Shown here in pieces: positions 42,474 through 52,769 of a stretch of 64,000 bases of DNA. This DNA is from Sediminibacter sp. Hel_I_10 (GTDB taxonomy: Bacteria; Bacteroidota; Bacteroidia; Flavobacteriales; Flavobacteriaceae): assembly GCF_000688335.1 (NCBI RefSeq), contig NZ_JHZX01000001.1:3162001-3226000 (forward strand). The letters run 5' to 3'. The position numbers and the translations under genes are program-made. Below the pieces are notes generated by a model, which ran no database searches, was not told the DNA's origin, and worked only from the letters and a program-made list of their open reading frames with translations. Numbering within the stretch: the first letter of the stretch is position 1; every line of letters starts with the position of its first letter.

Positions 42474-42515
42474 AAAAAGACCTTTGGCACTAAAGCTTTA
42501 GAAATTGGTCTTTTT
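42474..42515 (-). terminator. Minus-strand terminator after the UbiA-type gene
   Basis: Arms AAAAAGACC and GGTCTTTTT (42474-42482 with 42507-42515) enclose an inner palindrome CTAAAGCTTTAG. On the minus strand the hairpin ends in T-rich sequence directly after the UbiA-type stop codon, so it separates that gene from maf. Confidence 0.65.
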
Positions 42516-43425
42516 ATTTAAGTATAAAAGGATATAGTAAAAGTGAGAGCATGCCCAAAAGCATGATCACCTTATAGATACCGCTTATTTTTTTATAATG
42601 GCTTTTATGTTCTGCACCAAAAATCTTGATGGTGGCATAAATTAATGGAGCAATGATCAAGATCAAAAAATAGGCAATGGCCAATTGCTGCTTGTATAAA
42701 TAGGTGGCCAAATAGTAAATGACCATTGCAATAGGGATCATGCTTACAGCAAATACAATTTTTTTGGCGCGTTCTCGGCCAATGGCGATAGGGATGGTGT
42801 TCATTCCAGACTTGTAATCCCCGTCAATATCTTCAATATCTTTAATTAATTCTCTTACCAAATTGATCATAAAAGCAAAAACGGCGTAATCAAAAATAAT
42901 ATTAAGAAATATCATTTGCGTGGCTTTGTTTTGGGAAAACGTAGCAGGAATCACATCAAAGATCCCAATGATGAGTACGCTAAGGCCCACTAAGATAGAA
43001 ATAGCAAGGTTGCCGATAAAGATGGTACGCTTTAAAAACGATGCATACAGATAAAGCGCTAATGAGGTAATTACAAAAATGCCAAAGAATGCGGGTTTGC
43101 CAATATGATTAGACAAATAAAAGCCTAAAAGAATCCCCGTAATGTTAAAACCAAAAAACAGATTGTAGGCTACTGACTCTGTGATGTGCTTTCCAACGAT
43201 TTGCTTATCAGATCTATTGATGGCATCGGTATCTACATCATAAATATCATTGATGATATTTCCAGCGGCTGCCAGACATATGGTTGCAAGGCTAAGTACT
43301 GCAAAATGAAGGTTGTCAAGAACCGTTAAAATATTAAAGGCTTCTAAAAGTGCGTATTTTATTAAAAGGTGCACTAAGAGAATTAATGCTAAATTTTTCC
43401 AACGAATGAGATTTAAAATATACAA
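42514..43425 (-). CDS. UbiA-family prenyltransferase
   Basis: This 303-residue inner-membrane protein has about eight helices. The two Asp-rich motifs NDIYDVDTDAINRSDK and DIEDIDGDYKSGMNT bind the prenyl diphosphate through Mg2+. In Flavobacteria this clade is usually called geranylgeranylglycerol-phosphate geranylgeranyltransferase-like, but the acceptor cannot be read here. A terminator closes it on its downstream side. Confidence 0.85.
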   Translation of the reverse strand: MYILNLIRWKNLALILLVHLLIKYALLEAFNILTVLDNLHFAVLSLATICLAAAGNIINDIYDVDTDAINRSDKQIVGKHITESVAYNLFFGFNITGILLGFYLSNHIGKPAFFGIFVITSLALYLYASFLKRTIFIGNLAISILVGLSVLIIGIFDVIPATFSQNKATQMIFLNIIFDYAVFAFMINLVRELIKDIEDIDGDYKSGMNTIPIAIGRERAKKIVFAVSMIPIAMVIYYLATYLYKQQLAIAYFLILIIAPLIYATIKIFGAEHKSHYKKISGIYKVIMLLGMLSLLLYPFILK

Positions 43426-43518: not shown

Positions 43519-44721
43519 TTAACTTTCAAAAAAACCGGTGCTTCCTCCAACCCAGGTTTTATCTTTATTGTATTTAACGCCAACCATTTCGCCTTTGCTC
43601 AAACGCATCAAATTACTCACAATTTGAGTTTTGTTGGTTTTAGAGTTGTGCAAAAGCATCATCCTTATTTCACATTTAGCAGGAACGTCCATAGTTTCAA
43701 TCACTGGGGCGTAAGCTACTCTTTCTTGTAAAAGGTAGGTGGATTTGTCTTCAATGGCATCAATCATAGCTCGTGTGACATGTATTTTAACACCAGCGCC
43801 AGCAAATGAATATAAAGGCTTTAAGACGAAATTTTCTAAATCGGTAGGAATTGTTTCTAGTTTATCGAGATAGTAAGATTTTGGTACATAATCGCCGTGC
43901 AACAATGGCATGGTGAATTTACTGATTCTAAAAAACCAATTGGGATGACCAATCCATTCTACATCCACATCATCGGAAAAGTGAAATGCTGTTTCTAAGT
44001 CTTTTCGTTGATCTAGCTCGTCAAAGATGATGCGATTATAGATTTTTAAAACGACAATTTTATCTCCTTTGTCATCAAGATAGTACAATTGCTTTCCGTC
44101 TTTTTTTAAATCGGTAATACAAAGTACCTTAATGCCTAGTGCCGCTTCCGTAGCATAAAAATCAATCGCTGTGGCCTGTTTTTCTGGCTCAATTTCCAAT
44201 AAAATCACCTGTTTGGGGTCTGTATCACCAACAATTTCGTCTCTTAAAAGATCCACATACTGCTCTGGGGTCATGCCGTCAATATGTTGAGAATAGTCTG
44301 CAGGTATGGCATCTCCAAAGTGTTTTCGGTACATGCGACCTAACAGTTCTTGAAAGAAATAAAGCGACGGAAATCCTTGTAATTCAATAAGTTTAGGCAC
44401 GAGTTCTCCTTGGTCATTTTTACATACTCCAAAATCTAATTGAATAAATTTAGCCTGATCATCTTCGTTGGGTACGATGTTGGTCTTGTCAAAAAAAGCA
44501 GCATCTGTAAGCGCTTTAAAATTGGGCTTATTGATCACCGTCATGATATCATGACACGCATCCACTAATTTTGTTTTTAGAGCTTTGGGAATGAATGCTG
44601 GAGTCTCAGCAATTTTAAATTGAGGCTTGTAATCGTAGGATCTTGTGATATCTTCCAAAAAAGAGTTGTATTTAGCCTCGGTAAATTGATTGTTATAGCG
44701 TTTACGGTGTTTTGGAATCAT
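43519..44721 (-). CDS. ATP-grasp-like (GspS-type) predicted amide ligase
   Basis: This 400-residue cytoplasmic protein does not match a named enzyme. The C-terminal half carries an ATP-grasp-like pattern: ENFVLKPLYSFAGAGVKI (nucleotide-binding Lys plus glycine loop), STYLLQERV and AKCEIRMMLL (metal-ligating acidic residues). The N-terminal VPKLIELQGFPSLYFFQELL resembles the pre-ATP-grasp segment of glutathionylspermidine-synthase-type ligases. It ends the five-gene operon, six bases after the amidotransferase. It probably forms an amide bond between a carboxylate and an amine; substrates are unknown. Confidence 0.6.
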   Translation of the reverse strand: MIPKHRKRYNNQFTEAKYNSFLEDITRSYDYKPQFKIAETPAFIPKALKTKLVDACHDIMTVINKPNFKALTDAAFFDKTNIVPNEDDQAKFIQLDFGVCKNDQGELVPKLIELQGFPSLYFFQELLGRMYRKHFGDAIPADYSQHIDGMTPEQYVDLLRDEIVGDTDPKQVILLEIEPEKQATAIDFYATEAALGIKVLCITDLKKDGKQLYYLDDKGDKIVVLKIYNRIIFDELDQRKDLETAFHFSDDVDVEWIGHPNWFFRISKFTMPLLHGDYVPKSYYLDKLETIPTDLENFVLKPLYSFAGAGVKIHVTRAMIDAIEDKSTYLLQERVAYAPVIETMDVPAKCEIRMMLLHNSKTNKTQIVSNLMRLSKGEMVGVKYNKDKTWVGGSTGFFES

Positions 44722-44727
44722 GTGAAC

Positions 44728-45564
44728 TTATGATATTAAAGATTGACCAACGTGATTTATGGCGTTGGAAATAAATTTAGGAAGAATCGCATTATAGGTC
44801 ATGGTAATTTTATCTGGATCGTCCATTTTATCCATCATGTCATTGTACTTTTCTTCCCCAAAATTGTTGATGACCTTCATCTTGTTCTCTTCAGCCAAAA
44901 AATAGGCTTTCATGCCAATAGGATCGGCTTCTGGGTGAAATTGAGTGCCTACAAATTCTTCGGAAAATCGAACCGCCATAATAGCGCGTTCATATTCAAC
45001 ATGAGTTCTTATTTTTTCTAGACTGAGAATGGTGGCACCTTGCTCTTTAAAGACTTTTAATCTGGGTTGAACCAATTGCCAATCTCTGGAGTCTACAGCA
45101 TAAAACGGATCATTCAATCCCTCCAACAAGGGATCCTTAATGCCTTTTTTTGTTTTATGAACAGGAAGAATACCAAAGGAAGTGCTCTTTCTGGGTTTGA
45201 TAGTGCCCAGTTTAAAGTAATTACAAACAACTTGGAACGAATAGCATATAAAGAAAACATGTTTCTTTTGAAACGCTGATGTTTCGTTGAAATCCCATAG
45301 TTGCTGGATCAAGTTGAGGTATGGTGCTCTCCACTCGCCATCTTCTAATGGGATACCAGGGCCGCCACTTGAAATATACACATCATAAGAGGTGTCTGGT
45401 AATTCGTTTTTTGCACGCACGTTAAAAACAGTGGTATCGGCATCTTCAGTAAAAAAAGCAGCAATCTCCTTGATGCAACGTAAACCTTGGTTTGGCGCAT
45501 CGTTGTTCATGTCTAAAATTGCAATTTTAGCTTTTTCTTTCGTCATATTCATGTGCTCTATCAT
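44728..45564 (-). CDS. Class I glutamine amidotransferase-like protein
   Basis: This 278-residue protein has a triad of Cys107 in VFFICYSFQ, His210 and Glu212 in GTQFHPEAD. The nucleophile elbow lacks the usual G-x-C-x-G glycines. SSGGPGIPLEDGEW is the oxyanion-region motif. It should release ammonia from glutamine, or act as a related peptidase. It lies five bases from the carboxylate-amine ligase stop and six bases before the ATP-grasp-like gene, so it likely feeds ammonia to one of these ligases. In-frame ATGs at 45552 and 45546 are alternative starts. Confidence 0.82.
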   Translation of the reverse strand: MIEHMNMTKEKAKIAILDMNNDAPNQGLRCIKEIAAFFTEDADTTVFNVRAKNELPDTSYDVYISSGGPGIPLEDGEWRAPYLNLIQQLWDFNETSAFQKKHVFFICYSFQVVCNYFKLGTIKPRKSTSFGILPVHKTKKGIKDPLLEGLNDPFYAVDSRDWQLVQPRLKVFKEQGATILSLEKIRTHVEYERAIMAVRFSEEFVGTQFHPEADPIGMKAYFLAEENKMKVINNFGEEKYNDMMDKMDDPDKITMTYNAILPKFISNAINHVGQSLIS

Positions 45565-45569
45565 TCTAA

Positions 45570-46664
45570 TTATGTTCCTAGTATAGTTTGGTCTGTAATG
45601 TAGTCGACCACTTTTTTAAGATCTTTGGTTTCTTCAAAAATGGCCAATTGGCGATCTGCGCCTGTACCGTTTTTGAGCATTTGCTCAATAAACTCAATCT
45701 CTTTTCTTGAGCCTAAATCATCTACAACATCATCTACAAAATCAAGTAGCTCTCCCATGAGTAACCTGGTCTCAACTTCGCATTCTTTTCCGAAATCAAT
45801 CATTTTGCCGTCAATACCATAACGACTGGCCCGCCATTTGTTTTCATTAATTAAAGCTCTATGGTACCAATTGAAATTAAGATTTTGATTTCTTAGTTTG
45901 TACAATTTAGCAACCAAAGCCTGTACTAGTGCTGCAATGCTCAATGTTTCTTCTATGGTTAAAGGAACATCGCATATGCGTACTTCTAGTGTTGGAAAAA
46001 ATGGGTGGATGCGAATATCCCACCAAATTTTCTTCGGATTGTCAATACACTTTGTTTTAACTAAAAGATTAACATAATGCTCATATTCTGCCACACTGTG
46101 AAAAATACCAGGGATCCCGGTTCTAGGGAATTTGTCAAAAACCTTTGATCTAAACGATTTAAATCCCGTATTTCTGCCTTCCCAAAAAGGAGAGTTTGTT
46201 GAAAGCGCATACAAGTGAGGTAAAAAATAGCGCATGGAGTTGACCAAGTGTAAGGCCAGCTGCTTATCTTCAATACCCACATGAACGTGAAGGCCAAAAA
46301 TTAAGTTAGACCTAGCTGTGTCTTGCAGCTCGTTAACAATTTCATCATAACGAGGGTTGGGTGTAATGAGCTGAGTTTCCCATTTGGTAAAAGGGTGGGT
46401 TCCAGCAGCACCAATTTTAAATCCTAAATCATGAGCTATAGAACCAATAGATTTTCGTAAATGCGTGATCTCGGTACGTGCTTCAGAAATATCATTGCAA
46501 ATATTTGTACCAACCTCAACAACCGCTTGGTGCATCTCTGCTTTAACTTGTTCATCGAGCAATTTTGCAGCATTGGTGACAATCTGCTGATCGTGCGAAA
46601 TTAATTCGCGCGTGCTGGGATCAATAACTTGATATTCTTCTTCTATGCCTAATGTAAACTTCAT
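45570..46664 (-). CDS. Carboxylate-amine ligase, GCS2 (YbdK-type) family
   Basis: This 364-residue protein has MKFTLGIEEEYQVIDPSTREL, MHQAVVEVGTNIC, the central HVHVGIEDK and FPTLEVRICD motifs of glutamate-cysteine-ligase-type enzymes. It uses ATP to join a carboxylate and an amine. Bacterial homologues with weak gamma-glutamyl ligase activity exist, but the physiological substrate is unknown. It lies in the middle of the operon, 56 bp after the tailed ATP-grasp gene. Confidence 0.88.
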   Translation of the reverse strand: MKFTLGIEEEYQVIDPSTRELISHDQQIVTNAAKLLDEQVKAEMHQAVVEVGTNICNDISEARTEITHLRKSIGSIAHDLGFKIGAAGTHPFTKWETQLITPNPRYDEIVNELQDTARSNLIFGLHVHVGIEDKQLALHLVNSMRYFLPHLYALSTNSPFWEGRNTGFKSFRSKVFDKFPRTGIPGIFHSVAEYEHYVNLLVKTKCIDNPKKIWWDIRIHPFFPTLEVRICDVPLTIEETLSIAALVQALVAKLYKLRNQNLNFNWYHRALINENKWRASRYGIDGKMIDFGKECEVETRLLMGELLDFVDDVVDDLGSRKEIEFIEQMLKNGTGADRQLAIFEETKDLKKVVDYITDQTILGT

Positions 46665-46720
46665 ATTAAATTACTCTAAATTAAAACATTAACTCGATTA
46701 TGTTGAAACTAAAAAGAAGA

Positions 46721-47839
46721 TTACTTCTTGGTAGTTTTTGTGGCTGCTTTTTTGATAGCAGTCTTTGGAGTTGCTGTCTTTTTTGTTGCAGGTTTAGGAG
46801 TAGCTGTCTTTGATTCTGCTTTTTTTACGGCTGGTTTAGGCGTTGCTGTTTTTTTAGCTGGCGCTTTTTTAATTGCGGTTTTAGCGGGTGCCATTTGATC
46901 TTTTACAAAGGTTCCCCATGTCAAATTCATTTGTCCCTTCTTGTAAGCTTTAGCCTTTTTGATGGCCATATTTGCAGCGTTTTCGACAATCCAGTCAAAA
47001 TTGTCTTGACCAACAGAGTGTATGTCTGCATCAGGAGCAGGGTTACAGAAATCAATGGCATACGGGATGCCATCTCGCACTGCAAATTCTACTGTGTTAA
47101 AGTCATAGCCTAAGGCTTTGTTAAGTGTGATGCAATATTTTTTGACAAGTGCCAGTAATTTTTTATCCACTTGAGGTCCGTCGATCACGTAACGTAAATG
47201 AAAAGGATTTCTAGGTTCGTATTGCATGATGTGCACATTGTCTGTGTCCAGAACGTAGCATCTAAAATATTCAGTAAACTGAATTTCCTCTTGAAGCATC
47301 ATTACCAAATGTTCTGTTTCCCCATGTTTTCTCCAGAGATCATCTGGATTATCTACACGGTACACACTTTTCCATCCACCTCCATCGTGAGGTTTCATGT
47401 AGGCAGGAAAGCCAATGGTCTCGAACATTTTCTCCCAATTGAAAGGAAATTTCATGTTTCTAAACGAATTTTGATCGGTATCTGGCGGACGATGTGATGT
47501 TGGTAGAATAAAGGTCTTAGGGACAGGGACGCCTACTTTTTCTGCTAAAGCATTATTGAAAAACTTTTCGTCGGCACTCCACCAAAACGGATTGTTGATA
47601 ACGGCAGTACCGGTAATGGCCGCATTTTTTAAATACGCTCTGTAAAAAGGGACGTCTTGTGAAATGCGATCAATAATTACAGCATATTCGTCAGATTTTG
47701 CCTGCTCAACCGTGTCAATTAGCACTGCTTCAGCAACCATATCCTTAATGCCTTGTTCTTTTATTTTTTGATTGGTACGGTCTATAAATGCTTGTGGAAA
47801 GGTGTTTTCCTGACCGAATAAAATTCCTATTTTCTTCAT
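46721..47839 (-). CDS. RimK-like ATP-grasp enzyme with lysine/alanine/proline-rich tail
   Basis: This 372-residue protein begins MKKIGILFGQENTFPQAFIDR. The ATP-grasp core includes FPAYMKPHDGGGWKSVYRV (nucleotide-binding Lys/glycine loop), LMMLQEEI-like VMMLQEEIQF and FNTVEFAVRDGIPYAIDFCNPAPDAD with the metal-binding acidic residues. The last ~58 residues are a basic, low-complexity tail of TPKP/KKTA/KKA repeats resembling histone H1. Such a tail might bind nucleic acid or polyanions. It is the second gene of the operon, 20 bp after the esterase gene. Confidence 0.8.
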   Translation of the reverse strand: MKKIGILFGQENTFPQAFIDRTNQKIKEQGIKDMVAEAVLIDTVEQAKSDEYAVIIDRISQDVPFYRAYLKNAAITGTAVINNPFWWSADEKFFNNALAEKVGVPVPKTFILPTSHRPPDTDQNSFRNMKFPFNWEKMFETIGFPAYMKPHDGGGWKSVYRVDNPDDLWRKHGETEHLVMMLQEEIQFTEYFRCYVLDTDNVHIMQYEPRNPFHLRYVIDGPQVDKKLLALVKKYCITLNKALGYDFNTVEFAVRDGIPYAIDFCNPAPDADIHSVGQDNFDWIVENAANMAIKKAKAYKKGQMNLTWGTFVKDQMAPAKTAIKKAPAKKTATPKPAVKKAESKTATPKPATKKTATPKTAIKKAATKTTKK

Positions 47840-47859
47840 GTTATATGGTTATTTAGTGA

Positions 47860-48564
47860 TTAAATTGTAGATAAATAATGTGGAAACATTTCCAGCCAAA
47901 TGGGCCAATCATGTTCTGCCCATCGGCGCTCATCAAACCAAAAGGGGATGTTTTTGTCGTTGAGTATTTTTGCAAGTCGTTGATTGGCCTCTAAGCAAAT
48001 GTCATATTCACCAACACCTAGAATGATTTTCATTTTCCAAAGCTCAGGATTATTGCTACCTGGTAAAAAATCCACGGGATTATTAAAAAAGACATTGTCA
48101 TCATAATAGCCTCCCAAAAACGACTTGATGTCAAAAGAACCACTCAAGCTAAACATGTGGCTTACCTTTTCAGGATGTTTGAATGCAAAATTAGCGGCAT
48201 GATAGCCGCCAAAGCTAACACCAGCCATGGCTACTTTCGAAATTCCCTTTTCATGACAAATAGCATTCACGACTTCATCCATGATAAACTTATCATACCA
48301 CATATGGTTTTTAACCTTTTCAGCCGGATGAATGCCTTTATTGTACCAACTCATATCGTTAATACTATCTGGACAGTAAATTTGGATGAGTCCTTGTTCT
48401 AAGAACCATCGTGCAGATTCTATAAGCTTAAAATCCTTACACTCGTAAAATCGTCCCATGGTTGTAGGAAATAATACTACAGGATAGCCAGCGTGGCCAA
48501 AAGTGAGCATTTCAATATCCTTGCTCAGAGTAGGTGAATACCATTTGTGATAATCTTCTTTCAA
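47860..48564 (-). CDS. Putative alpha/beta-hydrolase esterase
   Basis: This 234-residue protein has the nucleophile elbow AGVSFGGYHAA (Ser117) and a C-terminal AEHDWPIW likely carrying the catalytic His. The family is the esterase-D-like putative esterases. No signal peptide, so cytoplasmic. It leads the five-gene amidoligase operon, and its likely role is hydrolysis or transfer of an ester or peptide-like product. Substrate unknown. Confidence 0.82.
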   Translation of the reverse strand: MKEDYHKWYSPTLSKDIEMLTFGHAGYPVVLFPTTMGRFYECKDFKLIESARWFLEQGLIQIYCPDSINDMSWYNKGIHPAEKVKNHMWYDKFIMDEVVNAICHEKGISKVAMAGVSFGGYHAANFAFKHPEKVSHMFSLSGSFDIKSFLGGYYDDNVFFNNPVDFLPGSNNPELWKMKIILGVGEYDICLEANQRLAKILNDKNIPFWFDERRWAEHDWPIWLEMFPHYLSTI

Positions 48565-49579: not shown

Positions 49580-50935
49580 ATGAAACTAAAAGAATTGCCA
49601 AAACGCATATGGATTACCTTCATCATTGGCTCTATTGTATATGTTATAGGAACATTTTTATCTGATGGGTTTCAATATGATAGCATTAATGAATTTCTTT
49701 TAGATTTTACAATCTGGCAGCTTTATGCTTTTGTGTTAGGATTTTCCAACACCTACTTCTTTAATTATATGGAGCGTAGAAATTGGAAAAAATACGATAC
49801 GCTAAAACGTATTTTCTTCGGAATATTGGGCTCTACCATAATCACCTTGATCGATTTGTTTTTATTGAGAGTTGCTGTGGAAGTACTTTATTTCGGAGCA
49901 CCGTTCAACACCTTTATAGAAAACGAGTCATGGCAAGGTTATGCCTTTGGATTTTGGGTAACGCTTATTATCGTTTCGGTTTTTCATGTCATTTACTTTT
50001 ACAATCAGTATCAGAAAAATAGAATTAAAGAACAGAAGGTTATTGCTGGAGCTGCAAGTGCAAAGTTTGATGCGCTTAAAAATCAATTAGATCCTCATTT
50101 TTTATTCAATAGTCTGAATGTCTTAACCAGTCTTATTGAAGAAAATCCAAAAAATGCGCAAAAGTTCACGACCTCTTTGTCAAAAGTGTACCGTTACGTA
50201 CTTGAGCAAAAAAACAAGGAATTAATTCCTGTAGATGAGGAGCTCGCATTTGCCAAGACCTATATGTCTTTATTAAAAATGCGTTTTGAGGATAGCATTA
50301 TTTTTGAAATTCCAGATCAGGCCTCAGATCCAGAAATGAAAGTGGTGCCGCTGTCATTACAATTGCTTTTGGAAAATGCGGTAAAACATAATATGGTTAC
50401 CCCAAGCAAACCGCTACATATTAAGATTTATGAAGATAGCAACCACTTAGTGGTTATGAATAATTTACAACTCAAGCAAATCGTGAAGAAGAGTAGTGGG
50501 GTTGGTCTTGAAAATATCAAGCAGCGCTATAGGCTACTTTCAAATAGAAAAATAATTATAAAACAACGTGAGCAGGATTTTGTTGTCGCAATACCTATGC
50601 TCACCAAACAAGTATCAGTTATGAGAAGATTAGAACCCGCAAGGTCAGGTGTTAGTGACCAGTATGTAAAGGCGCGCAAACGCGTAGAAGAGCTTAAGGC
50701 ATTTTACTATAGCCTCATTTCTTACTGCCTCGTCATTCCTTTTTTAATATTTATATATTTTAAATATTCAAGTCATACCATTCAATGGTTTTGGTTCCCT
50801 TTATTAGGGTGGGGACTTAGCCTTGTATTTCAGGCTTATCGTGTATTTGTGGATGATGGAGCTTTTGGAGCTAAATGGGAGCAGCGTAAAATAGAAGAAT
50901 TTATGCAAAAGGAAGATAGAAACCGATGGAGTTAA
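49580..50935 (+). CDS. LytS-type sensor histidine kinase with C-terminal 2TM domain
   Basis: This 451-residue protein has four N-terminal transmembrane helices (about 10-27, 44-62, 78-100, 122-141). The His_kinase signature LDPHFLFNSLNVLTSL (phospho-acceptor His173) and an HATPase with LLENAVKHN and SGVGLENIKQRY follow. Unusually, residues about 355-445 form a 2TM domain (KARKRVEELKAFYYSLISY...KWEQRKIEEFMQKE), shared with the three small proteins that follow. It should phosphorylate the LytTR regulator at 52008. The stop overlaps the next start. Confidence 0.9.
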   Translation: MKLKELPKRIWITFIIGSIVYVIGTFLSDGFQYDSINEFLLDFTIWQLYAFVLGFSNTYFFNYMERRNWKKYDTLKRIFFGILGSTIITLIDLFLLRVAVEVLYFGAPFNTFIENESWQGYAFGFWVTLIIVSVFHVIYFYNQYQKNRIKEQKVIAGAASAKFDALKNQLDPHFLFNSLNVLTSLIEENPKNAQKFTTSLSKVYRYVLEQKNKELIPVDEELAFAKTYMSLLKMRFEDSIIFEIPDQASDPEMKVVPLSLQLLLENAVKHNMVTPSKPLHIKIYEDSNHLVVMNNLQLKQIVKKSSGVGLENIKQRYRLLSNRKIIIKQREQDFVVAIPMLTKQVSVMRRLEPARSGVSDQYVKARKRVEELKAFYYSLISYCLVIPFLIFIYFKYSSHTIQWFWFPLLGWGLSLVFQAYRVFVDDGAFGAKWEQRKIEEFMQKEDRNRWS

Positions 50936-51261
50936 AATCAATTGACATGAACAAAATAGATTCAGAATTAAAGTATAACAGAGCTAAAAATAGAGTTAAG
51001 AAATTAAGAGGGTTTTACAATCATGTTGCCATATATTTTATAATAAACTTTATTATCACAGGATTTAAAACTTATAACTATTTGGATAACTGGGAGATGT
51101 TTTTTGGTAGAGTAGTTAGTATTGATGTGTTGAGTTCATGGGTGGTTTGGGGAATGATGTTACTGCTGCATTTTCTAATGGTTACTTACGGATTGGGTTG
51201 GGAAGAGCGCAAAATTGAACAATACATGAACGAAGAATTGAATAACGACTCAAAACTTTAA
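50926..51261 (+). CDS. 2TM-domain protein 1
   Basis: This 111-residue 2TM protein contains YNRAKNRVKKLRGFYNHVAIYFIINF, two hydrophobic helices and WEERKIEQYMNEE. Start at ATG 50926 overlaps the kinase stop by ten bases; ATG 50947 is an alternative. It is a paralogue of the kinase tail and of the next two proteins. Confidence 0.82.
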   Translation: MELKSIDMNKIDSELKYNRAKNRVKKLRGFYNHVAIYFIINFIITGFKTYNYLDNWEMFFGRVVSIDVLSSWVVWGMMLLLHFLMVTYGLGWEERKIEQYMNEELNNDSKL

Positions 51262-51262
51262 A

Positions 51263-51610
51263 ATGATGGAAAAATATAAATTAGAACTTTACGATAACGA
51301 AGAAGAGACCTATTCTTATAAACGCGAAGAAGCTTATATAAGAGCGAAAAAGCGGGTAGATAGTTTAATCGGATTTTACTGGCACCTCGCCTCTTATGTT
51401 ATTGTCAATCTCTTCTTGATTGTTGTAATAGGGATGTATTCCAATCAGGGATTTACTAGTTTTGGGACTTATGCCACAGCTTTTTTCTGGGGTATTGGAT
51501 TATTGTTTCATTTCTTAGGAGTTTTTGGACCAAACTTCATGTTCGGAAAAAATTGGGAAAAGCGAAAAATTCGGGAGTTTATGAATAAGGAAAATGAGAA
51601 CTGGGATTAG
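51263..51610 (+). CDS. 2TM-domain protein 2
   Basis: This 115-residue protein shares the layout RAKKRVDSLIGFYWHLASYVIVN, two helices, and NWEKRKIREFMNKE at the C-terminus. It lies one base after the previous stop. Both ends are predicted cytoplasmic. It may be a membrane partner of the kinase. Confidence 0.82.
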   Translation: MMEKYKLELYDNEEETYSYKREEAYIRAKKRVDSLIGFYWHLASYVIVNLFLIVVIGMYSNQGFTSFGTYATAFFWGIGLLFHFLGVFGPNFMFGKNWEKRKIREFMNKENENWD

Positions 51611-51630
51611 AATTTTAAGAATTGAAACTT

Positions 51631-51957
51631 ATGGACACTAAAGAGAAAGACGCTCAAAACTTAATTCAGGCAAAGCAAAAATTACGAAAACTTAAGATCT
51701 TCTACATTCATTTGGCTGGGTATTTTGTATTAACGGCATTACTACTTTATAACTTATATATTATTGAAGACAACGGTTACAAGCAGACCATTACTATTCT
51801 AAACATGACAACTATAGTAGTGTGGGGTGTTTTTCTTTTTGTACATGGGTGTTTTGTTTTTAAAGGAAGATTTTTATTTAAGAGAAGCTGGGAAGAAAAG
51901 AAGATCAACGATTATTTAAATAAGGAAGAAGGCCAGAATTCTGGTTTTTGGGAATAA
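51631..51957 (+). CDS. 2TM-domain protein 3
   Basis: Start set at ATG 51631; the frame opens at a TTG (51622) without advantage. The 108-residue product contains QAKQKLRKLKIFYIHLAGYFVL, two helices and WEEKKINDYLNKEE. Third small paralogue in the row, 50 bp before the response regulator. Confidence 0.82.
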   Translation: MDTKEKDAQNLIQAKQKLRKLKIFYIHLAGYFVLTALLLYNLYIIEDNGYKQTITILNMTTIVVWGVFLFVHGCFVFKGRFLFKRSWEEKKINDYLNKEEGQNSGFWE

Positions 51958-52007
51958 TTTATTCTGAATACGAGTTTTGAGAATATTTAAAAAATGTAAT
52001 TTAAACT

Positions 52008-52769
52008 ATGAATGTTATTATAATTGAAGACGAAAAACCGTCTGCAAGGCGCTTACAGCGTATGCTTAAAGAATTGAATGTTGACGCAGAAACCATGTTG
52101 CACTCTGTAGAAGAAGCTATTGATTGGTTTCAAAAGAATGCCCATCCTGATTTGATTTTTTTAGACATTCAATTGAGTGATGGTCTCTCATTTGAGATTT
52201 TTGAAGCGGTAGATATTAAATCTGCAGTTATTTTTACAACGGCTTACGATGAGTATGCGCTTCAGGCCTTCAAACTAAATAGTATCGATTATTTATTGAA
52301 ACCTATTGATGAAGAAGATCTAGCAACGGCTGTAGAAAAATACAATAGTAGAACTGCAAATAGAGAAACTCAAGCCGTAAAATTAGACTTTGACGATATT
52401 AAAAAACTTTTGGTCAACCCTATTGAAAGAGAGTATAAGAAACGATTTTCAGTAAAAGTTGGTCAGCACCTCAAGTTGATCAATATCGATGACATTGAAT
52501 GTTTTTACAGCGAAAATAAAGGCACTTATGCCTATACAAATGAAGGTAGAAATTATCTTTTAGACCTAACTTTAGAGCAATTGGAAGAGGAGCTAGAGCC
52601 GCATAAGTTTTTTAGAGTGAGCCGAAAATTTATTGTCAACGTTAATGCCATTGATGATATGATTAGCTATACAAACTCAAGATTAAAAATTAAATTAAAG
52701 ACGTTTAAAGATGGTGAAATTATTGTGGCTAGAGAGCGCGTCAAAGAATTTAAGGATTGGCTGGCATAA
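52008..52769 (+). CDS. LytTR-family response regulator
   Basis: This 253-residue protein has a receiver domain (1-120: IIEDEKPSARR, phospho-acceptor Asp53 in LIFLDIQLSDG, LLKP Lys98) and a LytTR DNA-binding domain (about 145-250: IDDIECFYSENKGTYAYT...HKFFRVSRKFIVNVNAI). It is the output partner of the kinase at 49580; the genes between encode 2TM proteins, so the set is one signalling operon. Target promoters are unknown. Confidence 0.95.
   Translation: MNVIIIEDEKPSARRLQRMLKELNVDAETMLHSVEEAIDWFQKNAHPDLIFLDIQLSDGLSFEIFEAVDIKSAVIFTTAYDEYALQAFKLNSIDYLLKPIDEEDLATAVEKYNSRTANRETQAVKLDFDDIKKLLVNPIEREYKKRFSVKVGQHLKLINIDDIECFYSENKGTYAYTNEGRNYLLDLTLEQLEEELEPHKFFRVSRKFIVNVNAIDDMISYTNSRLKIKLKTFKDGEIIVARERVKEFKDWLA

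Follow-up and report, generated by a model that had tools for sequence, protein, structure and literature searches.

The genome of Sediminibacter sp. Hel_I_10 carries, within a 64,000-nucleotide stretch of contig NZ_JHZX01000001.1 (positions 3,162,001 to 3,226,000; hereafter the window), a five-gene operon, A to E, which forms part of a larger set of eight genes, A to H, that recurs across the Bacteroidota. We hold, with about even confidence, that this set constitutes an accessory pathway in which a short, perhaps gamma-glutamyl, peptide-like compound would be built by successive ATP-dependent amide ligations and trimmed by hydrolases. This reading draws upon the conserved order of A to E, the presence of E in every genome that encodes C, the co-inheritance of B to E and the restriction of F to genomes with B, together with the occurrence of an M29 peptidase in the slot of D and of a PF14403 ATP-grasp protein between B and D in genomes lacking E. 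About a third of the Bacteroidota sampled carry the set (104 of 296 genomes, counted by B), and its make-up (four amide ligases, of three or four different types, together with an aminopeptidase, a glutamine amidotransferase (GATase)-fold enzyme and two esterases) predicts a product that is new, whether a peptide-like metabolite, a cofactor or a protein tag. The eight genes offer a concrete list with which the product could be sought.

The operon was verified at positions 43519..48564 of the window, as a single minus-strand unit of five genes with intergenic gaps of 20, 56, 5 and 6 bp, in agreement with an earlier reading of the sequence alone (the sequence-only reading), which had placed it at the same coordinates. 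Its features are as follows:

47860..48564 (-), A, an alpha/beta-hydrolase of the esterase (PF00756) type, 234 amino acids (aa), TTG start
46721..47839 (-), B, a RimK/LysX-like ATP-grasp ligase, 372 aa
46721..46903 (-), the C-terminal tail of B (past residue 312) with the stop codon, rich in Lys, Ala, Thr and Pro and mostly disordered in the structure model
45570..46664 (-), C, a GCS2 (YbdK-type) carboxylate-amine ligase, 364 aa
44728..45564 (-), D, a class-I GATase-fold cysteine enzyme, 278 aa, probably an amide hydrolase
43519..44721 (-), E, a circularly permuted ATP-grasp ligase of the glutathione synthetase/GspS/YgiC fold, 400 aa

A was 234 aa long in 49 of 65 aligned sequences, with conserved GxSxGG and HDWP stretches. 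Between positions 43300 and 49000 there were 20 promoter-like sites relative to a shuffled expectation of 18.3, and seven terminator-like sites relative to 4.3; none is claimed here.

The proposal that three different types of amide-bond ligase are combined with hydrolases in one operon was also upheld. C exceeded the curated cut-offs of PF04107 (227.4 versus 21) and NF010039 (539.7 versus 371), and matched the YbdK structure 1r8g with an E-value of 4.6e-49. B possesses the ATP-grasp fold together with its metal and ATP residues, and its model was nearest to RimK, ArgX and LysX, which were tied, with scores below the cut-offs of the RimK family TIGR00768 (31.5 versus 143.4) and of R2K ATP-grasp clade family 2 (PF18299; 19.8 versus 26.2). 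The structure model of E was matched over its full length by glutathione synthetase, GspS and YgiC, enzymes which we take to act on the carboxylate of a (gamma-glutamyl) peptide. The sequence of E scored below the cut-off for glutathionylspermidine synthase (PF03738; 19.5 versus 29.3), and a sequence search of the Protein Data Bank (PDB) returned no matches up to an E-value of 1, with profiles giving weak matches only. Amongst 11 loci that lack E and encode both B and D (L082-L092), nine contained a gene of one family between B and D, the one representative scanned being PF14403, a different circularly permuted ATP-grasp (37.3 versus a cut-off of 32). The gene call between B and D was unclear in L086 and L088, and F comes after D in L082 and L085.

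A single set of 296 Bacteroidota genomes was searched with E, D, B and C, with 93, 73, 108 and 103 raw matches, respectively. Weak matches were removed for E (one, G097), D (three: G127, G215 and G270) and B (four: G007, G087, G160 and G287), and 16 matches of C at 34-49% identity were set apart, seven of them in D genomes lacking E and nine in genomes without B. E was thereby retained in 92 genomes, D in 70, B in 104 and C (at least 53% identity) in 87, under match thresholds that were chosen after the gaps were visible. All 87 genomes with C also encoded E (Fisher P 1e-69, uncorrected for relatedness), B was present in 89 of the 92 E genomes, and not one of the 104 B genomes lacked both E and D. 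The four genes B to E were found together in 50 genomes, B, C and E without D in 34, and none of the four in 189 of the 296.

Relatedness is partly controlled by patterns of presence and absence within genera. In genus g2, three genomes (G142, G154 and G218) encode C, D and E, two of them with B, and 12 genomes listed as lacking a match to E are likewise absent from the matches to D, B and C; in the genus of the window, E was found in four of 23 genomes. The gene set appears to be accessory, and to be gained and lost nearly as a unit. Of 56 fetched stretches with E, 19 also contained C and the other 37 did not, these stretches being a non-random sample partly picked for the absence of D; as the pairing of C with E persists though the two are often unlinked, linkage is not what keeps these genes together. 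A was left out of the co-occurrence analysis, some match to it being present in 146 of 296 genomes, with many paralogues. Conservation of the five genes in other Bacteroidota, which the sequence-only reading had suggested as a check, holds best for B, C and E, whilst D and A, and in some cases C, can be exchanged.

A scan of named genomes yielded 134 relatives of E, the best 80 of which were kept as the 80 named loci; the protein database contained at least 7950 relatives of E (7950 of 8000 candidates scored). A to E were complete at 58 of the 80 loci, every time in identical order and strand; the other 22 include some truncated by the end of a contig, and C is absent from many loci of Saprospiraceae or Chitinophagales among them. 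Eight protein families each occurred in at least 51 of the 80 loci, and a ninth in only 16. The three families additional to A to E are F, an ATP-grasp protein (PF13535; 31.7 versus a cut-off of 27), G, an M17 cytosol aminopeptidase (PF00883; 375.5 versus 25) and H, an esterase (PF00756; 105.2 versus 22), as determined from one scanned representative of each, and tblastn detected them in 54, 51 and 59 of the loci, respectively. The five-gene set described earlier is thus real but incomplete, since eight genes are found in most of the 80 loci, adding a fourth ligase and the aminopeptidase. At 48 loci (44, plus four having a split gene) A-B-C-D-E is accompanied by a convergent F-G-H beside E; seven further loci have an H-like gene that instead lies divergent from A, and in a more distant genome (L116) all eight genes run in the same direction, in the order H-G-F-A-B-C-D-E.

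None of F, G and H was found by tblastn within the window. The genome from which it derives encodes F at C1:3836696-3837892 (83% identity), in a second block, H-G-F (L210 5383-8893; C1 about 3834400-3837900), approximately 630 kb from the A to E operon. Three relatives of the same genus have F beside A to E, of which L202 and L203 also have G and H, and L201 has G at the edge of its stretch. F (at least 42% identity, with matches at or below 31% discarded) was present in 23 of 39 genomes with B and in none of 39 without (Fisher P 2e-9, uncorrected).

The substrates, the order of steps and the direction of the hydrolases are proposed here by analogy with related enzymes. C would join the carboxylate of an acidic amino acid (glutamate, if it resembles YbdK and glutamate-cysteine ligase) to an amine, and B, as a RimK/LysX-like enzyme, may add or accept an acidic amino acid. 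E could activate the resulting peptide at its C-terminal carboxylate, for coupling to either a polyamine-like amine or an amino acid, with F, encoded elsewhere in the window's own genome, perhaps adding one more unit. D, which is swappable with an M29 peptidase, and G would hydrolyse amide bonds, either in the product or in an intermediate, in trimming, deprotection or turnover, and A and H may cleave esters.

Several observations weigh against such a pathway. C is absent from five of the 92 E genomes and missing at 18 of the 80 named loci, some of which are truncated by contig ends, and distant C homologues (at most 43% identity) occur without B in nine genomes. G154 encodes C, D and E with no B genome-wide, and neither B nor A was found in the fetched 12 kb of its 21.6-kb contig; F is missing in 16 of the 39 genomes with B. 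Transporters, carrier proteins and amino-acid-modifying enzymes are all absent from the eight conserved families, which is unusual for a secondary metabolite, and the lysine-rich tail of B and its bL21-like domain in a few species point to nucleic acid or the ribosome. Replacement of bacillithiol was considered and rejected: bshC was present in 39 of 40 genomes with B (missing in G109) and in 39 of 40 without (missing in G156), and this equal frequency gives no sign of the product standing in for bacillithiol.

The sequence-only reading had regarded D as an ammonia source; in such a version D would be a glutaminase feeding one of the ligases to yield an amidated cofactor or peptide. D does exceed the Pfam cut-off for the class-I GATase domain (PF00117; 36.2 versus 22.8), and its Cys-His-Glu triad (C107, H210 and E212) is intact in 109 of 109 aligned sequences. 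The usual nucleophile motif of class-I glutaminases, however, is G-x-C-x-G-x-Q, and D departs from it, having the motif F/L-I-C-H/Y-S-F-Q with Phe or Leu at position -2 in 105 of 109 sequences and Ser at +2 in all 109. A PDB sequence search with D gave no matches up to an E-value of 0.001, and its profile matches, none of them strong, were O-succinyltransferases, an uncharacterised protein and, weakly, GMP synthase. Furthermore, D is missing from 37 of the 92 E genomes, in five of which (G093, G271, G255, G055 and G251) an M29-type metallopeptidase (PF02073; 53.4 versus a cut-off of 27 in the one copy scanned) is found between C and E, in the slot of D, an exchange that speaks against D as an ammonia-supplying GATase. 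A sixth close copy occurs unlinked in G208, and all six are in genomes with E and without D (hypergeometric P 0.0033, uncorrected); the other 82 of the 88 genomes matched in this search of the 296 were at or below 40% identity, and no consistent substitute for D was seen in the remaining D-less genomes. Neither the operon nor the other window proteins scanned contained a known family of ammonia-using synthase partner, though a partner of unknown family is possible, and we know of no relatives of C, B and E that use ammonia rather than amines. An ammonia supply from D is accordingly distinctly unlikely, and the sequence evidence favours D as an amide hydrolase.

A further reading is detoxification or catabolic conjugation akin to the Puu pathway for putrescine, whereby an amine or foreign compound would be gamma-glutamylated, peptide-tagged and then processed by hydrolases. 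A GCS2-type ligase alongside a class-I GATase-fold hydrolase is reminiscent of PuuA and PuuD, and 14 of the fetched loci (L096, L097, L103, L142-L150, L173 and L174) have amidohydrolase-type genes adjacent or close to E, C or D, a label confirmed by Pfam in the two loci scanned. Yet the eight conserved families lack an oxidase, dehydrogenase or transporter, such genes being found beside E or D in single loci (L093 has a major facilitator superfamily transporter, L160 a short-chain dehydrogenase and L162 a sodium symporter), and four ligases exceed the need of a pathway of this type, which we consider a distinctly improbable function. Protein tagging, in which B, anchored at the ribosome or nucleoid by its tail, would attach amino acids to the end of a protein, C, E and F would lengthen or cap the addition, and D or a peptidase would remove it, we regard as rather unlikely. 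Its appeal stems from the likeness of B to RimK, ArgX and LysX, of which RimK glutamylates ribosomal protein S6 (PMC4431377), and from the tail. The tail of the window B is 60 aa long, with predicted local distance difference test (pLDDT) values below 50 at residues 320-347 and 349-372. Across 123 full-core B proteins it measured at least 20 aa in 54, at least 40 aa in 40 (the latter with 29% Lys) and less than 20 aa in 69. Four tailed B proteins were scanned, giving single matches to HC2 (histone H1-like; 42.1 versus 40), HHH_5 (27.3 versus 27) and DUF4332 (26.4 versus 23.2). An EGIGP helix-hairpin-helix-type domain was present in four of 125 B proteins, three from Winogradskyella and one from Chitinophagales, and in the Winogradskyella locus L034 this tail domain shares 77.5-80.8% identity with the C-terminal bL21 extension in five genomes of the window's genus; for the extension in the window's own genome, in a protein identified as bL21 by Pfam, the figure is 59%. 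A lysine-rich tail that is bL21-like in three Winogradskyella loci leaves room for a ribosome-linked tagging role, and one conceivable form of it, which we judge unlikely, would have B tethered at the ribosome or nucleoid and initiating, on a ribosomal or nucleoid protein, a peptide made non-ribosomally, with C, E and F extending and capping this peptide, possibly with a polyamine, and D, M29 or G erasing it. However, the short tails in 69 of 123 proteins and the scarcity of the helix-hairpin-helix-type domain (4 of 125) indicate that the tail is dispensable for core function, and the window's own B had no HC2 match at an E-value of 0.01. No conserved target protein is found among the eight families, a lysine-rich tail could equally bind a polyanionic product, and the folds of C and E are typical of small-molecule ligases.

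Some further observations concern these domains and the loci without D. The bL21 proteins of the window's genus (L185 1096-1761; L176-L180) bear a lysine-rich linker together with a helix-hairpin-helix domain, and the Winogradskyella B proteins of L025, L031 and L034 terminate in a bL21-like piece. As a related domain is also found in other proteins (L187-L195), it is a reusable module. In one D-less group (L142-L150, L096 and L097), E comes after the amidohydrolase gene, which in several members is preceded by a small gene, encoding a ferredoxin in the one scanned.

Of the known systems, the peptide-building pathway that we prefer resembles the synthesis of glutathione and glutathionylspermidine (glutamate-cysteine ligase, glutathione synthetase, GspS and trypanothione synthetase), in that both combine a GCS2-type ligase with one that has the eukaryotic glutathione synthetase/GspS fold, an enzyme pair mirrored by the constant association of C with E (87 of 87). 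It differs in that a RimK-like enzyme and a fourth ligase, of ATP-grasp type, are added along with hydrolases (two or more of peptidase type, and two esterases), in the score of E below the GspS cut-off and in the additional presence of bshC. B is distinguished from RimK, LysX and ArgX by its lysine-rich tail and its score under the TIGR00768 cut-off. To our knowledge, ygiC and yjfC genes are not located with GCS2 or RimK-like ligases. E is only 14 and 12% identical to E. coli YgiC and YjfC, respectively, which are peptide-spermidine ligases according to the title of Pederick et al. 2023, as cited in PMC12568646. The E-64 pathway (Cp1B ATP-grasp) is fungal and employs an ANL-family enzyme as its second ligase, and the part of it described there includes no GCS2 or GATase-like enzyme. 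Neither Alpha-E nor transglutaminase proteins, which define another system with a circularly permuted ATP-grasp, were detected among nine window proteins scanned. The amidoligase operons of Iyer et al. 2009 (doi 10.1039/b917682a), as represented in PMC4431377 and PMC3597751, are alike in linking ligases of several folds, for which peptide-like products were predicted. No description of this operon or its product, and no known pathway to which the cluster corresponds, was found in the literature searched, in line with the sequence-only reading, which knew of no characterised product; a prior prediction of this operon in Iyer et al. 2009 was neither confirmed nor excluded by that literature, and we regard the cluster as novel with reserve.

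A functional link to the neighbouring geranylgeranylglyceryl phosphate (GGGP) synthase, Maf and MscS genes was rejected. GGGP synthase, located beside the operon, is universal in the genus (23 of 23 congeners), and the position of the module relative to the GGGP-Maf-hypothetical-MscS block varies: L202 and L203 have it downstream, the window upstream and L201 elsewhere, whilst L204-L206 have no module beside the block. Positions 42514-43425 of the window encode a UbiA-family protein (NCBIfam geranylgeranylglycerol-phosphate geranylgeranyltransferase; 360.6 versus 278), which all 23 of the genomes examined from the genus also encode. The region 49580-52769 contains, by labels assigned by eye, a histidine-kinase-like protein and, after it, a LytTR-type response regulator (52008-52769); the C-terminal part of the kinase-like protein looks like three small two-helix membrane proteins in a row (50926-51957). 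In L172-L175 and L139-L141, a second PF00756-type esterase gene is divergent from B; past this esterase gene, L172-L175 also have a long gene, which encodes an outer-membrane beta-barrel protein in the one scanned (PF25183, L174).

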